Shown: positions 28,617 through 43,752 of the stretch, piece by piece
Numbering within the stretch: position 1 is the first letter of the stretch
Layout: every line of letters starts with the position of its first letter
From: Paenisporosarcina antarctica
GTDB taxonomy: Bacteria > Bacillota > Bacilli > Bacillales_A > Planococcaceae
Assembly (NCBI RefSeq): GCF_004367585.1
Contig: NZ_CP038015.1
Span: 1,060,001 to 1,124,000, forward strand
Direction of reading: 5' to 3'
DNA length: 64,000 nt
The notes under the pieces: generated by a model
Database searches by the model: none
The model's input: the letters and a program-made list of their open reading frames with translations, nothing else
What the model was told of the DNA's origin: nothing
Made by a program: the position numbers and the translations under genes

Positions 28617-29957
28617 ATGAATTCTGTATTTCAACATTTACCAGAGTCTGTCCTTACACAAATACTTGAAAATGCATTTCAATGGTTTGTTGTGGTCGAT
28701 AAAGATGCTCGTATTCTATATATTAATGAAGATTACTGTGAATTTTTAGAAGTTTCGCGAACTCAAGCAATTGGTCAACCCGTAGAAGAAGTTATAGAAA
28801 ACACTAAAATGCACGAAGTTATAAAATCTGGATTAGCCGATGTAGCATCCCCACATTACATTAAGGGGACATATATGCTTGCGAATCGCGTGCCATTAAT
28901 TGTAGATGGAGAGATTGTTGGTGCTTTTGGAAGTGTCGTTTTTCGTGATATGACTGATTGGAAAAAATTAAGTTCTCATGTAAGGACGACTATGGATAAA
29001 ATTCAGATGATTTCAGAAAATTCTGAACCCAAATCCCATTTAGAAGATATAAAAGGAAGCTCTAAAGCGATTCGCTCGATAAAAGAAACGATTCAAATGA
29101 TTGCACCAAGCGATTTGTCCGTCTTAATTGAAGGAGAAAGTGGAACAGGAAAAGAGCTATTTGCACAAAGTATCCATGAACAATCCGATCGAACAGATTT
29201 GCCCTTTGTGAAAATTAATTGTGCAGCTATTCCAGCTGAATTACTAGAAGAAGAGATTTTTGGTAGTTATGATGAATCCAGAAATATATTTAGAAAAGGT
29301 CGTTTTGAATTAGCCGATAAAGGTACCTTGTTTATTGATGAAATTGGTGCCATGCCACTCACCATTCAAGCGAAGCTACTTCGTGCTATTCAAGAAGGAG
29401 AGATTGAACCAATTGGCTCACATATCTCTACTCAAGTAAGTGTACGTATACTTGCAGCCACTAATCGACCAATTGAACACTTAATTGAACAAGGCAAATT
29501 CCGGGAAGATTTGTACTATCGTATCCAAACCATTACGCTACGCATCCCCCCGTTGCGAGAACGAATGGAAGATTTTACAGAACTAGCGAATACATTTTTA
29601 CAGCAATATATATTAAAAGTAGGAAAACGTAGGCTAGTACTCGCTAGCAAAACTAGAGAGTACTTACAAAGCTACCATTGGCCTGGAAATGTTCGAGAAC
29701 TACAAAATGTAATACAAGCAGCTGTGTATTTAGCCGAAGATGAAATAATTGAGCCTTCAGTTTTACCAGAACAATTAAAGCTAGCAAGGAGAAAGTCTCT
29801 TAATCAATTTGTGAATTTACAAGATGCGATTGAGGACCTGGAACGTACAATGATTCAAGAATTATTAGAAGATGAAAAAGATAAGAGAGTAATTGCTAAA
29901 CAATTAGGTCTTAGTCGTTCGACATTATATGAAAAAATAAAAAAACACAACTTATGA
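28617..29957 (+). CDS. PAS - AAA+ - Fis-type regulator without GAFTGA loop
   Basis: Architecture of a sigma-54 activator, 446 residues: PAS sensor (about 10-115), AAA+ domain (about 143-370) with Walker A GESGTGKELF (about 171) and Walker B LFIDEIG (about 238), and a C-terminal Fis-like helix-turn-helix ending the protein. The segment that should hold GAFTGA reads FGSYDESRNIFRKGRF (about 214-229): the motif is absent and the loop is about three residues short. GAFTGA contacts sigma-54, so this protein probably regulates SigA promoters instead, as TyrR does. It sits just upstream of the ketone-body operon with three palindromes between; control of that operon is inferred. ATG after AAAGGAGGGG. 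Confidence 0.9.
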   Translation: MNSVFQHLPESVLTQILENAFQWFVVVDKDARILYINEDYCEFLEVSRTQAIGQPVEEVIENTKMHEVIKSGLADVASPHYIKGTYMLANRVPLIVDGEIVGAFGSVVFRDMTDWKKLSSHVRTTMDKIQMISENSEPKSHLEDIKGSSKAIRSIKETIQMIAPSDLSVLIEGESGTGKELFAQSIHEQSDRTDLPFVKINCAAIPAELLEEEIFGSYDESRNIFRKGRFELADKGTLFIDEIGAMPLTIQAKLLRAIQEGEIEPIGSHISTQVSVRILAATNRPIEHLIEQGKFREDLYYRIQTITLRIPPLRERMEDFTELANTFLQQYILKVGKRRLVLASKTREYLQSYHWPGNVRELQNVIQAAVYLAEDEIIEPSVLPEQLKLARRKSLNQFVNLQDAIEDLERTMIQELLEDEKDKRVIAKQLGLSRSTLYEKIKKHNL

Positions 29958-29963
29958 CCTAAT

Positions 29964-30059
29964 TCCGAAAAAGCGGACTAGTTTCCGGGATTCCGGATTA
30001 TATTATTCTGCTAAAATGTGGTATTATTGAATTTTTTTAATAATATCCGATATTTCGGA
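29964..30059. promoter_or_regulatory. three TCCG-N6-CGGA palindromes, likely operators of the regulator
   Basis: TCCG-N6-CGGA occurs at 29964-29977, 29984-29997 and 30046-30059, identical arms and spacing each time. The first two centres are 20 bases apart (about two helical turns), the third 62 bases further. They lie between the regulator stop and the scoA promoter region, where enhancer sites of such regulators are usually found. Confidence 0.65.
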
Positions 30060-30102
30060 CTGGTAAGTAGTAAGTCTCGACAAAAAGTTGTCACAAGTGC
30101 TA

Positions 30103-30131
30103 TTGCGTGAATATTCCGCATCTGTTTTAAT
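30103..30131 (+). promoter_or_regulatory. candidate SigA promoter of the scoAB operon
   Basis: TTGCGT (30103-30108), a 17-base spacer, TTTAAT (30126-30131). No GG-N10-GC sigma-54 promoter was found in the same interval. Confidence 0.4.
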
Positions 30132-30137
30132 AACTAA

Positions 30138-30151
30138 TGAAAGCGCTTTTT
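30138..30151 (+). promoter_or_regulatory. cre-like site near the scoA transcription start
   Basis: TGAAAGCGCTTTTT matches the CcpA cre consensus (TGWAARCGYTWNCA) through the core and first arm; its second arm ends TT instead of CA, and TTCA follows two bases later. Its place just after the -10 suits carbon repression by CcpA, whose gene is at 59469. Confidence 0.45.
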
Positions 30152-30189
30152 CACAAAATTTTAACTAATTCTTGTAAGGAGGAAACCTG

Positions 30190-30879
30190 ATGAAGCCAAT
30201 ATATTCTTCTGCAGAAGAGGCTGTACAACAAATTCAAGATGGCATGACTTTAATGGTAGGTGGTTTCGGCTTAGTAGGAATACCTGAAAAAATGATTCTT
30301 GCACTTGTAGATAAAGGAGTAAAAGATTTAACAATCATTTCAAATAACTGTGGTGTAGATGACTGGGGTCTCGGTCTTTTATTGAAAAATAGACAAATCA
30401 AAAAAATGATTGGTTCATATGTTGGTGAAAATAAAGAATTTGAACGTCAAGTATTATCTGGTGAGATTGAAGTGGAGTTGACGCCACAAGGTACTTTAGC
30501 AGAAAAAATTCGTGCAGGTGGTGCTGGTATTCCCGCATTCTTTACACCGGCAGGCGTTGGAACAATAATAGCTGAAGGAAAAGAAATTCGTGAGTATGAT
30601 GGCAAAGAATATGTACTTGAAGAAGCGTTACGTGCTGATTTTGCTCTTGTACGTGCAGCGAAAGCTGATAAGTTTGGTAATCTTGTCTATAACAAAACAG
30701 CTCAGAACTTTAATCCGATGATGGCAGCTGCAGGGAAATTCACAATTGCAGAAGTAGAAGAAATTGTGGAAACAGGCGACTTGGATCCGCACTCTATTCA
30801 TACACCAAGCATTTATGTGCAAGGACTACTACAAGCATCACAAGAAAAACGGATTGAACGTTTAACGACTCGTTCATAG
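30190..30879 (+). CDS. scoA: 3-oxoacid CoA-transferase subunit A
   Basis: Alpha subunit (229 residues) of succinyl-CoA:3-ketoacid CoA transferase, which activates acetoacetate with CoA from succinyl-CoA. It shows the family [10 protein letters not shown] (about 23-32) and the [12 protein letters not shown] and [16 protein letters not shown] blocks. AAGGAGG precedes the ATG. scoB starts 20 bases downstream. The acetyl/butyryl-CoA acetoacetate transferase AtoD is an alternative; the order with permease and hydroxybutyrate dehydrogenase matches the B. subtilis scoA-scoB cluster. Confidence 0.95.
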
Positions 30880-30899: not shown

Positions 30900-31562
30900 A
30901 TGGGAAAAGTAAATTCTAGAGAACGAATTGCTATTCGAGCTGAACAAGAAATTGAAGACGGGGATTATGTGAATTTAGGAATAGGGATGCCTACATTAAT
31001 TGCTAACTATATTTCTCCTAATAAAACGGTTGTTCTTCAATCAGAAAATGGATTGCTAGGTATAGGACCATATCCTACAGAAAATGAAGTTGATCCAGAT
31101 TTAATTAATGCAGGTAAAGAAACGGTGACTACTATTCCCGGTTCTGCATTTTTCACAAGTGCTGAATCATTTGCAATGATTCGCGGTGGCCACGTTGATG
31201 TTGCCATTCTAGGTGGTATGGAAGTTTCAGAGACTGGGGATCTTGCTAACTGGATGATTCCAGGGAAAATGATTAAAGGAATGGGTGGCGCAATGGACTT
31301 AGTACATGGTGCCAAGAAAATCATTGTCATTATGGATCATGTTTCAAAAGACGGTTCTGCCAAAATTAAAAAACAATGTGACTTGCCGTTAACCGGTAAA
31401 GGCGTAGTAAACAAAATTATTACGGAACGTGGATTAATTGAAGTAACTCCAAGTGGTTTAGTTTTAAAAGAAGTTTTCGAAGGATTCTCTGTTCAAGACG
31501 TCATTGATTCTACTGAAGCTTCTCTAGATGTAACTAATGTAAAAGAAAATGTTCAGTTGTAA
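30900..31562 (+). CDS. scoB: 3-oxoacid CoA-transferase subunit B
   Basis: Beta subunit (220 residues) carrying the catalytic Glu in QSENGLLG (about residue 48), which forms the glutamyl-CoA intermediate. [11 protein letters not shown] and the later [12 protein letters not shown] block are typical. AGGAGG precedes the ATG. It is followed after 34 bases by the permease, so uptake and activation of acetoacetate or hydroxybutyrate are encoded together. Confidence 0.95.
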
Positions 31563-31596
31563 ATCGTCTTAATAAAATTTCGGGGGAAATTTGTTC

Positions 31597-32937
31597 ATGG
31601 ATACTAGTATTGTGTTAGGTATGATTGGTCTTATAGGGGGACTAGCTTTACTTATTACCTTAACGTTGAAAGGTGTTAACATTCTGATCGGTGGTCCAGT
31701 CGCTGCTTTATTTGTCGCTCTGATGAGTGGATTGCCATTATTTCCTCAATTGGTTGCGGAAGGAGCTCCAAACTTCGTTACCAGTTATATGACAGGTTTT
31801 ACATCGTTCATATTAGCTTGGTATCTTATGTTCTTACTAGGTGCTGTTTTCGGGAAAGTAATGGAAGACAGTGGTGCTGCTGATGCAGTTGCAAAATGGT
31901 TTGTTGAGAAATTAGGCATGAAATTTGCTGTGCTTGCACTTGTACTTGCTTGTGCTGTTCTTACATACGGTGGAGTTAGTTTGTTCGTCGTAGCATTTTC
32001 TGTATATCCAATGGCTATTTCGTTATTTAAACAAGCAGATTTACCACGTCGTTTTATCCCAGCGACGTTAGCATTAGGGTCTGTTACATTCACGATGACT
32101 TCTGCGGGTTCTCCAGAAATTCAAAACTGGATTCCAATTCCATTTTTAGGGACTAATCAGTTTGCAGGATGGGAAGTTAGTCTTATCGTAGCTGCATTCA
32201 TGGCAGTCTTTGGGTACTGGTGGTTGAAAAAAATTATTAGTAAAGCAGTCAATAAAGGTGAGCATTTTGAAAATCGTGAGACGGATCCTACATTTGATGT
32301 CACAAGGCCATTACCTAATCCCTTCTTATCAATGATTCCATTATTGGTTGTACTGGTAATTTCGTTCATTTTCCACGATGAATTAAAAACTTCAGCGTTA
32401 ATTGTTGCCTTGCTTGGTGGAATTATTGCAACATTTATCGTTAGTTGGAAATACTTTAAAGCACCATGGGAAGCAGTTTCTGCGGGTACTGTAGGTGCGA
32501 TTATCGCAATTGGTAACACGGCTGCGGTTGTAGGTTTCGGAGGAGTAGCCAAAGCGGTTCCTGCTTTCGGTGTAGCTGTTGATGCAATGGCAAGTCTTCC
32601 TGGTTCACCATTGATTGGCGCAGCAGTAGCCGTATCGGTTATCGCAGGTATGACTGGTTCAGCTTCTGGTGGGCAAGCTATTGCTTTACCATTATTAGCA
32701 CCAGGTTATATGGATGCTGGTGTTAACCCTGAAGCGTTACACCGTGTTGTGGCCATTTCATCTGGAGCACTTGATTCACTTCCACATAATGGCTATGTTG
32801 TTACAACTATTCATTCCATCTGTGGGGAAAAATATAGTGCAGCTTACTGGGCTGTAGCAGCGACAACAGTCGTAACTCCGGTCATTGGAGTAATAATCGC
32901 TATCATATTATTCTCATTTGGTATTGGTATTAATTAA
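31597..32937 (+). CDS. yxjC: GntP-family permease, probable hydroxybutyrate/acetoacetate transporter
   Basis: GntP/citrate-type proton symporter, 446 residues with about 12 hydrophobic segments. Family blocks include GAVFGKVMEDSGAADAVA (about 84-101) and GMTGSASGGQAIALPLL near the C-terminus. In B. subtilis the equivalent YxjC lies with scoAB, so transport of short hydroxy or keto acids is inferred. ATG 31597 follows GGGGGAAA; a TTG at 31591 is possible but less well placed. Strong terminator behind. Confidence 0.9.
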   Translation: MDTSIVLGMIGLIGGLALLITLTLKGVNILIGGPVAALFVALMSGLPLFPQLVAEGAPNFVTSYMTGFTSFILAWYLMFLLGAVFGKVMEDSGAADAVAKWFVEKLGMKFAVLALVLACAVLTYGGVSLFVVAFSVYPMAISLFKQADLPRRFIPATLALGSVTFTMTSAGSPEIQNWIPIPFLGTNQFAGWEVSLIVAAFMAVFGYWWLKKIISKAVNKGEHFENRETDPTFDVTRPLPNPFLSMIPLLVVLVISFIFHDELKTSALIVALLGGIIATFIVSWKYFKAPWEAVSAGTVGAIIAIGNTAAVVGFGGVAKAVPAFGVAVDAMASLPGSPLIGAAVAVSVIAGMTGSASGGQAIALPLLAPGYMDAGVNPEALHRVVAISSGALDSLPHNGYVVTTIHSICGEKYSAAYWAVAATTVVTPVIGVIIAIILFSFGIGIN

Positions 32938-33010: not shown

Positions 33011-33069
33011 AAATTATCATCAAACCCTGGATTGGGTGCAAACGGTATTTTTCGATGGAGGGACATATA

Positions 33070-33837
33070 ATGGTAAAAGATAAAGTTTTATTCATTACAG
33101 GTGCAGCACAAGGAATTGGTTTTGAAATCGCTCGCGAGTTTGCTCAAGCAGGTGCGAAAGTGGTTTTGACTGATTTGAATGAAGAAAAAGTAAAAGAAGC
33201 AGCAAATTCACTTGGATTCAATGCAATTGGTTTAAAATGCGACGTAACCATAGAATCTGATATTGTGAAATCAATTGAAGAAACGATTGCTCATTTTGGA
33301 AGACTAGATATTTTGATTAACAATGCAGGTATGCAACATGTAGCCATGTTAGAAGATTTTCCAACAGAACGTTTTGAATTACTAATAAAAATTATGTTAA
33401 CTGCTCCATTTATAGCCACGAAAAATGTATTACCACAGATGAGAAAACAAGGATTTGGACGAATTATCAATATGGCATCCATTAATGGATTAGTAGGATT
33501 TGCTGGAAAAGCAGCTTATAACTCTGCAAAACACGGAGTCATCGGTTTAACGAAAGTTGCTGCACTTGAAACAGCTACTGCAGGTATTACCGTTAATGCT
33601 ATTTGCCCAGGGTATGTAGACACGCCACTTGTACGTAATCAACTACAAGATCTTGCGACAACTCGAAAAGTTCCACTAGAATCCGTGCTCGAAGATGTGA
33701 TCTATCCACTCGTTCCTCAAAAGCGTTTGCTTGATGTGAAAGAAATTGCTGATTTAGCGATGTTCTTATCAAGTGAAGGTGCAAAAGGGATGACAGGGCA
33801 GGCAGTCGTTCTAGATGGGGGGTATACCGTCCAATAG
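33070..33837 (+). CDS. yxjF: 3-hydroxybutyrate dehydrogenase (SDR family)
   Basis: Short-chain dehydrogenase that oxidises 3-hydroxybutyrate to acetoacetate with NAD. The 255-residue protein has GAAQGIG (about 12-18), NNAG (about 87-90), catalytic Ser in MASING (about 139) and YNSAK (about 152-156). The C-terminal GMTGQAVVLDGGYTVQ is typical. The ATG at 33070 follows GGAGGG. Its product is the substrate of ScoAB, completing a ketone-body route. A general SDR call cannot be fully excluded, but context fits. Confidence 0.92.
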   Translation: MVKDKVLFITGAAQGIGFEIAREFAQAGAKVVLTDLNEEKVKEAANSLGFNAIGLKCDVTIESDIVKSIEETIAHFGRLDILINNAGMQHVAMLEDFPTERFELLIKIMLTAPFIATKNVLPQMRKQGFGRIINMASINGLVGFAGKAAYNSAKHGVIGLTKVAALETATAGITVNAICPGYVDTPLVRNQLQDLATTRKVPLESVLEDVIYPLVPQKRLLDVKEIADLAMFLSSEGAKGMTGQAVVLDGGYTVQ

Positions 33838-38529: not shown

Positions 38530-40140
38530 ATGTCAAATAATTTTTTAAAAGGAACTGCTATTCTAACACTTGGATTATTTCTGTCAAAAATATTAGGGGT
38601 TATTTATATTATCCCATTCTATTCGATGGTCGGAGAAGACAATATTGGTCTATATCAATATGCATATATTCCATATAATCTTATGCTAGCTGTTGCGATT
38701 TCAGGAGCGCCTTTAGCTTTTTCAAAATATGTTTCTAAATATAATTCATTAGGAGACTATCAGACTGGCAGACGACTATTGAAGTCTGGACTTTTCGCAA
38801 TGATGGTCACTGGATTTATTTCATTTCTATTCTTATATTTCTTCGCTGAACCATTGGCAAAGATATTCATTAGTGAGAAGGAGAAAATATTTACAGTTGC
38901 TGATGTGGCAGATGTCATTCGATGGGTGAGCTTTGCTCTGATTGTTGTACCTTTTATGAGTTTAATAAGAGGGTTTTTCCAAGGATATAGTTTTATGATG
39001 CCTACTGCTGTCTCTCAATTGATTGAACAAATCGTGCGTATTTTATTTCTATTAGCTGGGGCTTACCTAGTATTAACCATATTTAATGGGACACCTAAAT
39101 TAGCGATTCAAGTAGCTGTATTATCTGCGTTTATAGGTGCACTTGGTGGACTTGTTGTCCTTTATTATTACTGGCGTAAAAAGAAACCAGAATATAATCT
39201 ATTACTACAGGGGTCTACCACTTCACACGATGTTAAATTGACTGATATGTATAAAGAGATTCTTGTTTATGCAGTGCCAGTTGTCTTTTTAGGCGTAGCC
39301 AATCCATTGTTTCAATTTGTTGATTTACTGACATTTAATCGAGCAATGATTGACTCGGAACAAGCAACTAAATCAAGTGTTTATCTAAGTATATTGAATT
39401 TGCAATCTCATAAATTAGTGATGATTCCCGTTATGCTTGCTACGGGGTTTTCAATGGCTTTAATTCCATTGGTTACTAAATACTTTACACTTAATGAACA
39501 TAAACAATTGTCTAACACTCTGGATAAAACCTTCCAAATGCTTTGCTTTTTAACACTTCCTGCAGTAATTGGAATGACGGTTTTAGCAAGCGAATTATAT
39601 CACTTATTTTATGAACAAAGTTTAATAGGTTCTGATATTCTTGCTCATTATTTACCAGTTGCAATTCTGTTTAGTTTATTCCCAGTAACTGCTGCAATTT
39701 TACAAGGAATCAATCAGCAGAAATGGATTATACTAAACTTACTCATTGGGTTATTGATTAAATTAGCGTTAAATACACCACTAATTGGCATGTGGGAAAC
39801 AAATGGCGCTATTGCAGCGACGATCATCGGTTACAGTGTCGCAATTTTTATGAATTTCGCGGTTTTAGTTATCACTCAAAATTATCGTTCTAAGCTATTA
39901 GTTCGAAGAATTATTCTGATTACATTGATAAATGTAGCGATGCTAATTGTGGTTGTAATTGTTCGTATGTTATTGCTTCAAATTATGCCAGCAGAATCCA
40001 AATTTGGAGCTCTTCTTATCATTTTGATTGTGGGTACTATCGGCGGATTAGTTTATGGTGCAATTGGAATTCGTTTAGGGATCGCACAAAAGTTATTTGG
40101 CGAGCGTTTAACGAAATACACGAAAAAATTAGGTCTTTAA
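38530..40140 (+). CDS. ytgP: polysaccharide/lipid II flippase, YtgP (MurJ homologue)
   Basis: MOP-superfamily flippase of 536 residues with about 14 membrane segments. B. subtilis YtgP is a MurJ-type lipid II flippase, redundant with Amj, moving the peptidoglycan precursor across the membrane. The start MSNNFLKGTAILTLGLFLSK is typical of the subfamily. ATG after AGGAAG. It is followed after 12 bases by ytzG. SpoVB-type paralogues are an alternative, but the neighbourhood (ytfP, ytzG, ytzE, pepV) fits YtgP. Confidence 0.92.
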   Translation: MSNNFLKGTAILTLGLFLSKILGVIYIIPFYSMVGEDNIGLYQYAYIPYNLMLAVAISGAPLAFSKYVSKYNSLGDYQTGRRLLKSGLFAMMVTGFISFLFLYFFAEPLAKIFISEKEKIFTVADVADVIRWVSFALIVVPFMSLIRGFFQGYSFMMPTAVSQLIEQIVRILFLLAGAYLVLTIFNGTPKLAIQVAVLSAFIGALGGLVVLYYYWRKKKPEYNLLLQGSTTSHDVKLTDMYKEILVYAVPVVFLGVANPLFQFVDLLTFNRAMIDSEQATKSSVYLSILNLQSHKLVMIPVMLATGFSMALIPLVTKYFTLNEHKQLSNTLDKTFQMLCFLTLPAVIGMTVLASELYHLFYEQSLIGSDILAHYLPVAILFSLFPVTAAILQGINQQKWIILNLLIGLLIKLALNTPLIGMWETNGAIAATIIGYSVAIFMNFAVLVITQNYRSKLLVRRIILITLINVAMLIVVVIVRMLLLQIMPAESKFGALLIILIVGTIGGLVYGAIGIRLGIAQKLFGERLTKYTKKLGL

Positions 40141-40152
40141 GGTGGTTCTATT

Positions 40153-40866
40153 ATGAGATTAGATAAATTACTTTCTAATATGGGCTACGGCTCAAGGAAA
40201 GAAGTAAAAATCTTATTAAAATCAAAAGCGGTTGAAGTAAATGGCGTTTTTGCGAAAGATGTATCTATGCATGTCGATTCGAATACTGATCAAATTATAG
40301 TATTTGGTGAAAAAGTGATTTATACAGAATTTATTTACTTAATGATGAATAAACCACCCGGAGTTATTTCGGCTACGGAAGATAAATATGACCAAACTGT
40401 CATTGATTTACTTGATCCATTAGCGCAGCACTTTAAGCCTTTTCCGGTGGGACGTTTAGATAAAGACACGGAAGGGCTGTTAATTCTAACGAATAATGGC
40501 CACTTGTCACATCAGTTGTTATCTCCGAAAAAACATGTACCGAAACTATATTTTGCTGTGATTGAAGGTAAAGTAACTGAAGATGATGTGAAGAAGTTTA
40601 AAGAAGGTGTAACTTTGGAAGATGGTTATTTTACCAAACCAGGTAAACTTACTATATTATTAAGCGGAGAAGTGTCTGAAATTGAGTTAACAATAATGGA
40701 GGGTAAGTTCCATCAAGTGAAACGAATGTTTGAATCCGTTGGGAAGAAAGTGACATATTTAAAACGTATGTCGATGGGGTCACTAAGATTGGATGAAACA
40801 CTTGAGCTTGGGGATTATCGCCATTTAACTGAGGAAGAATTAGAGACATTACAAAAAAAAGAATGA
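40153..40866 (+). CDS. ytzG: 16S rRNA pseudouridine synthase, RsuA family
   Basis: RsuA/RluB/E/F pseudouridine synthase of 237 residues. An S4 RNA-binding domain (MRLDKLLSNMGYGSRKEVK) is followed by the catalytic block GRLDKDTEGLLILTNNG (about 103-119) with the catalytic Asp. A small-subunit rRNA target is inferred from the subfamily. ATG after AAGGTGG. Co-transcribed with ytgP; strong terminator after it. Confidence 0.93.
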   Translation: MRLDKLLSNMGYGSRKEVKILLKSKAVEVNGVFAKDVSMHVDSNTDQIIVFGEKVIYTEFIYLMMNKPPGVISATEDKYDQTVIDLLDPLAQHFKPFPVGRLDKDTEGLLILTNNGHLSHQLLSPKKHVPKLYFAVIEGKVTEDDVKKFKEGVTLEDGYFTKPGKLTILLSGEVSEIELTIMEGKFHQVKRMFESVGKKVTYLKRMSMGSLRLDETLELGDYRHLTEEELETLQKKE

Positions 40867-40892
40867 CCGAGATTTCTCGGTCATTCTTTTTT
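40857..40892 (+). terminator. terminator of ytgP-ytzG
   Basis: Eleven-bp core stem GAATGACCGAG/CTCGGTCATTC with A and T runs extending it. Confidence 0.93.
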
Positions 40893-40925
40893 ATTGAAGT
40901 GCGTGTTCAAATGTTTGAACAATAT

Positions 40926-41147
40926 CTAAGATGTCATTTTCACACGTTTGCTCGTCGTTGTCCAACTGCCACGACTCGGACTGCTGACCAAGTCATTAAA
41001 GGCTAACACGTTCAAATCTCTTTGGACGGTGCGAGGAGTGATGCCGAACTCATCGACTAAATCTTGTGTCGTTACAATTCCGTGATCTCGGATGAACATA
41101 TACACATCTTTAATCCGATTAAGCATCCGATCAGTAGTTGGTTTCAT
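40926..41147 (-). CDS. ytzE: DeoR-type HTH protein YtzE
   Basis: Stand-alone winged-helix domain of 73 residues: TTQDLVDEFGITPRTVQRDLNVL (about 26-48) is the DeoR-type helix-turn-helix; the sugar-binding domain of full-length DeoR regulators is absent. Size and sequence agree with B. subtilis YtzE. The ATG at 41147 (MKPTTDRML) is preferred; AAGGAG lies 13 bases upstream, a bit far, while the GTG at 41159 is too close to it. Targets unknown. Confidence 0.88.
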   Translation of the reverse strand: MKPTTDRMLNRIKDVYMFIRDHGIVTTQDLVDEFGITPRTVQRDLNVLAFNDLVSSPSRGSWTTTSKRVKMTS

Positions 41148-41159
41148 TTGTTGAACCAC

Positions 41160-41487
41160 ACTCCTTCATCTTATGTTCTCTTGGCTAAGACTAGCGGACG
41201 ACATTGAGTCATTAGAAGACTCGGTTGATTAAATAGAGTGCCGTAAACAGCCCCTTTTCTAATTGTTCATCAGACTACTGTTGTCTGACAATTCAATTAT
41301 AAAATAAATTACTCATCTTATCTAGCATAATATCTAACTTTTACAGAGAATTTACAAAAGCGTCATAAAAAATACGAAAATTCACTCTATATATATGTTA
41401 GAAAATTAAGAAAATGATGTTTGCCCCTATGATTTTTTTTTGAAAGGTGTAGAATAGCTTTATGAAAGTGGCAGGAGGAATTTACAC
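41160..41487. other. 328-base intergenic region upstream of pepV
   Basis: Divergent promoter region between ytzE and pepV. A hairpin (TCAGAC/GTCTGA extended by AATT bases, 41260-41292) lacks a T tract. The rest is very AT-rich. A -10-like TAGAAT lies near 41451 but its -35 is poor. No ORF. Confidence 0.6.
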
Positions 41488-42885
41488 GTGATTAATTGGT
41501 TGGACGAAGCGAAAAAGAAACAACCTGAGCTTTTAAAAGAGCTTCAGCAACTTATTCAAATTCCAAGTGTTTTGGATGAAGAGCATACCTCGAGTTCACA
41601 GCCGTTTGGTCCTGAACCACTTAAAGCACTAGAGTGGATACTTAAAAAAGGTCAGGATGCTGGAATGATCGTAAAAAACGTAGATAATATGGCTGGTCAT
41701 ATTGAAATGGGAGAAGGAGACGAACTTCTTGGTATTTTAGGTCATGTTGATGTTGTTCCTGCTGGCAAAGGGTGGACGTACCCACCTTTTGAAGGGCATA
41801 TTGAAAATAATCGCTTATATGGAAGAGGCACCATTGATGACAAAGGTCCAACGATGGCTGCTTGGATGGCCATGAAAATGGTCAAAGAAGCGGGAATTCC
41901 TTTAAACAAGCGAGTGCGATTAATTATCGGCACAGATGAAGAGAGCGGTTTTCGTTGTGTGAAACGCTACTTTGAAAAAGAAGAAATGCCACATATCGCC
42001 TTTGCTCCAGATGCAGATTTTCCGATAATAAACGCGGAAAAAGGTATTGCCACCTTGCGCTTTACAACAACAAAACTAGAACAAGAGGAGCAACTGCAAT
42101 CATTTCAATCAGGCACTCGAACCAATATGGTCCCTGACTTAGCAACAGCGGTTATTCATATAAATCATGCATCAATTGAAAAAGAATTCGAGCAATTTAC
42201 GAAACAACATAAACTTCAAGGTTCAATAAAAATTAATGAAAACGAGATTTTTCTTACCATAAAAGGTAAGTCTGCACATGCGATGGAACCGAACGATGGT
42301 GTTAATGCAGGTATCTATTTAGCTGAATTCTTAAAAGACATTGTTACTACATCAGGTTCGAAAGCATATGTAGAGTTTGTGTCCTCGTCTTTTTTCAATG
42401 ATTCAAGAGGTCAAGTATTGGCTCTTAACTATCATGACGAAATATCTGGAGAGACAACATTAAATGCAGGAATTCTTACTTTTGACCCGAAAATAGGTGG
42501 AACAATTGATGTTAGCATTCGATACTCTGTTTCATATAATTTTGATAAATATTTAACGAAGTGTCAGACAGCTTTAAGAAAAAACATTATTTCTGTGGAT
42601 GTAATATCCAATTCAAGTCCACATTATATTGAGGAGTCAGATGAACTGATTCAAAGCTTGTCTCGTGTATATGAGCGTCAAACCGGAGAAAAAGCAACGC
42701 TGCTGTCAATTGGTGGTGGAACATATGCACGTGTACTTAAAAAAGGTGTAGCTTTTGGCATGTTATTCCCAGGGGAAAAGGATGTAGCCCATCAAGTGGA
42801 TGAGTTTGTTGATATACAGAATTTAACAAAAGCAGTAGCGATTTACGCGGATGCGATTTGCGAACTCGCTTCAAAAAAATCATAG
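41488..42885 (+). CDS. pepV: dipeptidase PepV
   Basis: M20 zinc dipeptidase of 465 residues that cleaves dipeptides with broad specificity in the cytoplasm. Metal-ligand motifs: GILGHVDVVPAG (about 84), GRGTIDDKGP (about 113) and GTDEESG (about 150). The PepV lid domain fills the middle. GTG start after AGGAGG. It is followed after 15 bases by dat, as in B. subtilis and other Bacillales, where the pair links peptide use to D-amino acids. Confidence 0.95.
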   Translation: MINWLDEAKKKQPELLKELQQLIQIPSVLDEEHTSSSQPFGPEPLKALEWILKKGQDAGMIVKNVDNMAGHIEMGEGDELLGILGHVDVVPAGKGWTYPPFEGHIENNRLYGRGTIDDKGPTMAAWMAMKMVKEAGIPLNKRVRLIIGTDEESGFRCVKRYFEKEEMPHIAFAPDADFPIINAEKGIATLRFTTTKLEQEEQLQSFQSGTRTNMVPDLATAVIHINHASIEKEFEQFTKQHKLQGSIKINENEIFLTIKGKSAHAMEPNDGVNAGIYLAEFLKDIVTTSGSKAYVEFVSSSFFNDSRGQVLALNYHDEISGETTLNAGILTFDPKIGGTIDVSIRYSVSYNFDKYLTKCQTALRKNIISVDVISNSSPHYIEESDELIQSLSRVYERQTGEKATLLSIGGGTYARVLKKGVAFGMLFPGEKDVAHQVDEFVDIQNLTKAVAIYADAICELASKKS

Positions 42886-42900
42886 AGAGAAGGATTTACA

Positions 42901-43752
42901 ATGACTTGGGTATTATGGAATGATCGATTAGTAAAAGATGGAGACATTCAATTGTCGAAAGAAGACCGTGGCTATCAATTTGGAGATGGTATTTACGAAG
43001 TAATTCGTGTATATAACGGTAGCATGTTTACGGCAACAGAACATATTGATCGTTTCTACGAAAGTGCTGATAAAATAAAGATAGTCATTCCATATACAAA
43101 AGACGTTTTTCATAAAATGGTTTACGATCTTATTGAAGCGAATGAAGTCACATCTGGTCAAGTTTATATACAAATTACTCGTGGAGCAACGCCTCGTCAA
43201 CATCAGTTCCCAACGAACACCGTGGAGGCAGTTCTTACGGCATATACGAAAGAGTTGCAACGTCCTGTCTCAGAAATGACGAATGGTGTATCAGTCAAAA
43301 CAGTTGAGGATATCCGATGGTTGCGCTGTGATATAAAGAGTTTGAACTTATTAGGAAGTGTATTAGCGAAACAGGAAGCGTATGAAGACGGTTGTTTCGA
43401 AGCTCTTTTACATAGAGGAGATTCGATTACAGAAGGGTCTTCCACTAATATGTACGGTATAAAAGACGGTGTACTATACACACATCCTGCTACAAACTTA
43501 ATATTAAATGGCATTACTCGACGTGTTATTTTAGCTTGCTGTGAAGAGATTGGATTACCGGTAGTTGAAGAACCTATGTCTCTTGCCTCTGTGTTTTTAA
43601 ATGAAGAATTCTTTATGTCTTCGACAACTTCAGAAATAATACCAGTCATCATGATTAATGGACGTAAGCTCGGAAAGGGTTTACCAGGAGACTGGACCCA
43701 GAAATTACAAACAGCATTTGAAGCAAAAATTAATCAAGCTATATATGCTTAA
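42901..43752 (+). CDS. dat: D-alanine aminotransferase
   Basis: PLP fold-type IV aminotransferase of 283 residues that interconverts D-alanine and D-glutamate with their 2-oxo acids, feeding peptidoglycan. The PLP Lys is in CDIKSLNLL (about 146). YQFGDGIYEVIR, EGSSTNMYGI and SSTTSEIIPV are family blocks. AGAAGG precedes the ATG. Branched-chain aminotransferase is unlikely given the DgxYEV pattern and pepV neighbour. Confidence 0.95.
   Translation: MTWVLWNDRLVKDGDIQLSKEDRGYQFGDGIYEVIRVYNGSMFTATEHIDRFYESADKIKIVIPYTKDVFHKMVYDLIEANEVTSGQVYIQITRGATPRQHQFPTNTVEAVLTAYTKELQRPVSEMTNGVSVKTVEDIRWLRCDIKSLNLLGSVLAKQEAYEDGCFEALLHRGDSITEGSSTNMYGIKDGVLYTHPATNLILNGITRRVILACCEEIGLPVVEEPMSLASVFLNEEFFMSSTTSEIIPVIMINGRKLGKGLPGDWTQKLQTAFEAKINQAIYA

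Follow-up and report, generated by a model that had tools for sequence, protein, structure and literature searches.

Decoupled, GAFTGA-less activators that work with sigma70 are already known as a kind, and the sigma54-decoupled regulators of the NtrC type, TyrR and DhaR among them, make up a functional kind rather than one clade. One account describes TyrR and DhaR of E. coli and HupR of Rhodobacter capsulatus as sigma70-dependent NtrC-type proteins, counts VpsR and YplP, by their sequences, among the NtrC-type proteins whose GAFTGA is deleted or changed, and records that GAFTGA-less NtrC-type proteins also occur in species free of sigma54 (PMC3162934). For the GAFTGA-less NtrC of Rhodobacter capsulatus and Caulobacter, in which loop 1 carries a deletion, regulation of sigma70 promoters is reported (PMC10274813). 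The eight activators listed for Bacillus thuringiensis all carry GAFTGA (PMC4428206), and PrdR is described as a regulator that controls proline catabolism genes through sigma54 (PMC6615313). A search of open-licence papers found no report on the GAFTGA-less clade considered here.

The window, by which we mean the whole stretch of 64,000 nucleotides of Paenisporosarcina antarctica DNA that was analyzed, holds a member of this clade. Its gene is followed, after a 232-bp gap, by scoA, scoB and the genes for a GntP-family permease and a 3-hydroxybutyrate dehydrogenase (Table 1), a set by which 3-hydroxybutyrate or acetoacetate is taken up and used. Three copies of one palindrome lie in the gap. 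Our reading, drawn from sequence comparison and held with a probability of roughly 80%, is that they are the operators of the adjacent regulator, that GAFTGA and the -24/-12 promoter were lost and a sigmaA promoter was gained while the array was kept, and that the regulator would now act as an activator of sigmaA-dependent transcription.

Table 1. Genes, predicted operators and promoter elements of the regulator-scoA region (window positions)
Feature	Position	Strand	Remarks
Regulator gene	28617..29957	+	PAS, AAA+ (Sigma54_activat) without GAFTGA, Fis-type helix-turn-helix
Operator 1 (predicted)	29964..29977	.	TCCG-AAAAAG-CGGA
Operator 2 (predicted)	29984..29997	.	TCCG-GGATTC-CGGA; as RNA, weak terminator-like hairpin
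Operator 3 (predicted)	30046..30059	.	TCCG-ATATTT-CGGA; 57 bp start to start upstream of the -35 box
TTGTCACAA element ahead of the -35 box	30088..30096	+	conserved in part of the relatives
-35 box TTGCGT, predicted sigmaA promoter	30103..30108	+	
Extended -10 box TG-T-TTTAAT	30123..30131	+	hexamer 30126-30131
cre-like site TGAAAGCGCTTTTTCA	30138..30153	.	
scoA, 3-oxoacid CoA-transferase subunit A	30190..30879	+	
scoB, 3-oxoacid CoA-transferase subunit B	30900..31562	+	
GntP-family permease	31591..32937	+	
3-hydroxybutyrate dehydrogenase	33055..33837	+	

The array consists of three exact matches to TCCG-N6-CGGA, with TCCG and CGGA arms and six-base spacers throughout. A first, sequence-only reading of this DNA had picked out these identical, equally spaced palindromes, the first two 20 bp apart, and had judged them more ordered than chance predicts; both statements are borne out. 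The half-sites of sites 1 and 2, four in all, repeat every 10 bp exactly, and from site 2 to site 3 there are 62 bp, about six helical turns. The window contains four matches in all, whereas 100 dinucleotide shuffles give a mean of 0.23 and none of them reaches four. A genome scan, which had been suggested as a check, speaks for local clustering and not for an overall excess: across 3.97 Mb the motif stands at chance level, because it occurs 13 times and the backward-read pattern 14 times, while 3 of the 13 copies are packed into 96 bp. The remaining 10 copies lie within ORFs (7), between convergent ORFs (2) or directly past an ORF (1), and after this genome-wide placement of all copies the idea that the exact motif marks a wider regulon here was rejected. 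A chance origin of the three-site array was rejected as well, with the shuffles, the genome scan and the ortholog counts against it. The fourth copy in the window, at 41079, falls within a 77-aa ORF (40926-41159, minus strand) that resembles a lone helix-turn-helix, and it is probably due to chance; an Rfam search of window positions 40000-43000 returned no match.

Comparison with relatives reveals that sites of this kind follow the regulator gene in every ortholog taken. From 261 genomes of the family, the best 54 GAFTGA-less orthologs were kept (at least 53% identity); rows L075-L110, which largely repeat the genomes of L001-L054, were not recounted. The 130 bp past the 54 stop codons contain 64 exact sites (mean of 300 shuffles, 0.007), or 146 when up to one mismatch is allowed (shuffles, 0.46). 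An exact site is present in 37/54 loci and absent from 17/54; at up to one mismatch, this footprinting finds at least one site in every locus (54/54), and all three positions are occupied in 40/54. The sites recur at about +8 after the stop codon in 49 of the 54 loci, at about +28 in 47 and at +70-96 in 49, with a step from site 1 to site 2 of 20 bp in 40/43 loci and of 21 bp in 3. When all four-base inverted repeats with spacers of 0-16 are ranked, TCCG-N6-CGGA comes first (37/54 loci), and the second, CCGA-N4 (21/54 loci), is nested inside it.

Control loci without this regulator largely lack the motif. These are 30 gntP loci in 27 family genomes where the regulator is represented only by a distant paralog or is absent; they were drawn from the 35 gntP matches listed (30 loci, in 27/65 genomes, examined), and a bdh homolog stands directly next to gntP in some of them only. 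Within 400 bp upstream of gntP, 0/30 have an exact site and 1/30 has one at up to one mismatch. Set against 54/54 regulator loci, this 1/30 ties the sites to the regulator. Judged by this distribution, the three palindromes are very probably operators of the adjacent PAS-AAA+-HTH protein, in agreement with the earlier proposal that the neighboring Fis-type regulator binds them. The companion proposal of autoregulation through these sites was rejected, because the sites follow the regulator gene on its 3' side, and none at up to one mismatch occurs in the 300 bp before any of 53 regulator genes (0/53).

Seen as RNA, sites 1 and 2 resemble a terminator in many relatives. They are reverse complements of each other in at least 12/14 bases in 27/43 loci that have both, RNA folding of three relatives gives the pair a hairpin with z of -5.4 to -8.1, and the one terminator-like hit in a scan of the window falls on site 2. 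All this would suit palindromes that act as RNA, ending transcription of the regulator gene by hairpins, and not as DNA operators. Such an explanation is very unlikely for the array as a whole: the window's own folds are weak (z -1.7 for sites 1 and 2, -0.9 for site 3), site 3 stands apart as one palindrome at a fixed distance from the promoter, and the arms and six-base spacing persist where the stem does not. Sites 1 and 2 are likely to serve both purposes, which is compatible with their being operators. In relatives the two sites probably also end the regulator transcript, and they may be conserved partly for termination. At L028-L035, an inverted repeat with a T-run (GCAAACC...GGTTTGC), found by eye, overlaps the -35 box and looks as if it were a relocated terminator of the regulator gene.

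The regulator combines an AAA+ Sigma54_activat domain (PF00158, E 9e-59) with a Fis-type HTH (HTH_8, 5.5e-8; HTH_50, 1.5e-8) and a PAS domain, the AAA+ and HTH pairing being that of sigma54-dependent enhancer-binding proteins. Its NtrC-type domains would fit classical sigma54 enhancer sites, from which the protein reaches a -24/-12 promoter by looping and remodels the sigma54 polymerase, as would the GAFTGA and -24/-12 elements that orthologs of other families do carry and the presence of sigma54 in its own genome. However, the GAFTGA loop, which makes the sigma54 contact, is absent from all 54 clade orthologs, the window protein included (by deletion in 53/54, by other residues in L026), and is present in 18/18 proteins from outside the clade, which are orthologs and near paralogs. 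Of the GAFTGA-less proteins, 21/54, again including that of the window, retain the Walker B D-E pair, versus 18/18 GAFTGA proteins. A structure model of the regulator (mean pLDDT 80, pTM 0.54) has two short paired strands in the place of loop 1, and the AAA+ portion of the model matches FleQ, NtrC1 and LuxO (TM ∼0.9 by target length); the model adds little to the sequence.

The promoter and sigma factor point the same way. A -24/-12 promoter is found in 18/18 GAFTGA loci and in 0/54 clade loci within 300 bp past the stop codon at up to two mismatches; the 300-bp scan recovers 12/13 GAFTGA loci, the promoter of L192 sitting at the scan edge. A sigma54 gene over cut-off (PF04552, TIGR02395) was not found in 19/54 clade genomes, three of which show weak fragments and one of which (G077) is only 81% complete, whereas it is present in 20/20 genomes tested with GAFTGA copies (Fisher p 0.002, uncorrected for descent). 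All 19 genomes carry operator sites at up to one mismatch, 13 of them an exact one. The sigma54 enhancer function implied by the sequence-only reading is therefore not borne out in this lineage, with GAFTGA and the -24/-12 promoter at 0/54 each and the sigma54 gene lacking in 19/54 genomes, and classical enhancer sites are hardly credible here. Sigma54 in the same genome is not required in the clade, yet it is present in that of the window, as three full-length genes (C1:257680-258954, 964182-965399 and 2462076-2463350; L239, L240 and L241). Two of these share 93% identity over 1316 bp, their neighbors being unlike, and six genomes of the same genus that have the regulator have no sigma54 gene, against three here. 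Because this genome keeps all three, we infer that the sigma54 contact was lost first and sigma54 itself later in some lines.

At the target of the GAFTGA-less clade stands, by its sequence, a promoter of the sigma70/sigmaA type. TTGnnn-N17-TGnTTWAAT occurs in 46/54 clade loci versus 0/18 GAFTGA loci (shuffles, 0.025 of 54); the other 8/54, all of group g18, have no recognizable TGnTTWAAT promoter. A scan tool's candidate at 30088, TTGTCA-N16-AATATT, was set aside because relatives keep TTGnnn-N17-TGnTTWAAT. Transcription is predicted to start near 30138, about 7 bp after TGTTTTAAT, which would place the operator centers at about -167, -147 and -85. The enhancer-like placement claimed at first stands in that all sites precede the likely promoter of the operon; the distances then given, -65 to -160, do not match these centers. 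From the start of site 3 to the -35 box there are 55-58 bp in 43/43 measurable clade loci, a spacing that is constant even in loci whose upstream gap is shorter by 10 or 20 bp. In GAFTGA loci, the last site and the -24 element are 54-84 bp apart in 14/18 and 110-146 bp apart in 4/18. The cre-like site, a candidate CcpA site judged by the cre consensus, starts 3-6 bases past the -10 box in 38/46 loci. GTCACA/GACACA is found upstream of the -35 box in 30/46 promoters (L001-L054), singly at -13 in 19, as an 11-bp direct repeat in 10 and singly at -22 in 1, and is missing in 16.

This geometry also bears on the direction of control. A regulator that represses the sigmaA promoter, either by looping the DNA or by getting in the way of activators, until a ligand releases it could use sites that are well spaced on one DNA face, and decoupled relatives such as TyrR are described as both repressing and activating (PMC4374768). 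Repression is unlikely, given that the sites are centered far upstream of the predicted start and that GAFTGA orthologs have the same array on homologous genes in an activator layout. Ancestry and position together suggest that the regulator activates.

The GAFTGA-bearing state survives outside the clade. In Bacillus infantis (L109), the regulator (49% identity) is followed by operators at +4, +24 and +145, by TGGCACACATCTTGCA at +212, and then by gntP and bdh, homologous to the window's genes (72% and 71%). As in the window, two operators lie 20 bp apart past the stop codon and a third lies farther on; unlike the window, GAFTGA is present and the TGGCACACATCTTGCA promoter is canonical. Elsewhere in the class, twelve orthologs of other families (L185-L196) each combine GAFTGA with -24/-12 and with 1-4 sites when up to one mismatch is allowed. 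Within 1.5 kb downstream, each has a homolog of gntP, bdh or scoAB, which in L196 is only a distant gntP (37%). Within the window's own family, a GAFTGA paralog shows the same array and a -24/-12 promoter at five loci (L055-L058, L060), where the ORFs examined are acyl-CoA synthetase-like and enoyl-CoA hydratase-like genes (named from sequence reading). In G128, G131 and G141, this paralog and the GAFTGA-less regulator occur together (L055-L060; L014, L017, L020), and cross-talk is possible because both loci have the same operator consensus.

Two sets of GAFTGA rows were excluded from the 18. Among eight family rows, these are L059 (one site at +506, -24/-12 at +584), L062 (without a site, -24/-12 at +725) and L061 (neither site nor -24/-12 within 1500 bp). 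The other set is formed by twelve distant rows, L197-L208, whose proteins share 47-53% identity with that of B. infantis: 10/12 have no exact site in the stretch examined, L207 has one at +105 and L198 two far downstream, and a -24/-12 match lies in the first 900 bp of 6/12.

Phylogenetic analysis places the switch within this background. In a tree built with the loop columns removed and 27 of the 54 GAFTGA-less rows sampled, these 27 rows group as a single clade (100/100) that is nested in the GAFTGA rows and so descends from GAFTGA proteins. The nearest neighbor is L188, followed by L109, L185 and L186, all of them before gntP. Since the GAFTGA neighbors carry arrays and the clade is nested among them, the array is older than the switch; since the GAFTGA-less rows form a single clade, one loss would have accompanied a sigma swap under the old array.

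The ancestors would have been sigma54 enhancer-binding proteins with the same type of array, driving a gntP/bdh operon from a -24/-12 promoter. In the clade ancestor, GAFTGA would have been lost and an extended -10 sigmaA promoter would have replaced the -24/-12 element, with the operator array retained. In the present state, the regulator with its PAS ligand would occupy all three sites, its dimers probably joining into an oligomer; from site 3, at about -85 and a fixed promoter distance, it may activate the sigmaA RNA polymerase by contact, and CcpA would repress from the cre at the start. Regulator binding, activation over repression, the contact mechanism, the oligomers, CcpA and the PAS ligand are the parts of this scheme that we infer. 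Sequence comparison itself shows the array and its link to the regulator, the lack of GAFTGA and of -24/-12, the conserved promoter of sigmaA type, the lack of sigma54 in about a third of the genomes and the single clade. The points that weigh against our main reading are the exact site missing in 17/54 loci, the unrecognizable promoter in 8/54, the possible conservation of sites 1 and 2 partly for termination and the three sigma54 genes in the genome of the window.

A more specific form of the idea is tentative, and we hold it with somewhat less than even confidence: under the kept array, a sigma54 state with 54-146 bp to the -24 element may have given way to a sigmaA state, in which the distance to the -35 box is a rigid 55-58 bp. 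If true, a sigma54 remodeller became a docked, long-range activator of the housekeeping polymerase, and part of the hosts could then lose sigma54. That the old TTGGCAC...TTGC decayed in place to TTGTCAC...TTGC, whose TTGC is now in the -35 box, is left as speculation because site 3 lies 43 bp from TGTCAC in the window versus 54-84 bp from TGGCA in 14 GAFTGA loci.

For annotation, the label ‘sigma54-dependent’ is wrong for this clade, and the operator motif allows target prediction within it. States before and after such a change, on homologous genes with the same operators, are seldom seen. Here GAFTGA orthologs with the same type of array on homologous genes still exist, so that the two states can be compared: the GAFTGA-less side is found in Paenisporosarcina, Psychrobacillus, Sporosarcina and Ureibacillus, and the GAFTGA side in Bacillus infantis. 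With both states in named bacteria, it becomes testable how the activator changes its sigma factor and whether such a change makes sigma54 loss possible.

Among described proteins, PrdR (NF041552) is the best NCBIfam match of the regulator and, like it, spans PAS, AAA+ and HTH, but the match of 368 bits is far under the model cut-off of 795 bits. The GAFTGA-less NtrC of R. capsulatus and Caulobacter resembles the window's regulator in that a loop 1 deletion removed GAFTGA (PMC10274813); it belongs to NtrB-NtrC two-component nitrogen control, whereas the regulator described here has a PAS domain and one evident target operon in its genome. With TyrR, DhaR and HupR, as these are described, it shares a deleted or changed GAFTGA and descent from sigma54 activators (PMC3162934). 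It differs from them in lineage and operator, and in its setting at 3-hydroxybutyrate/acetoacetate genes in Bacillota.
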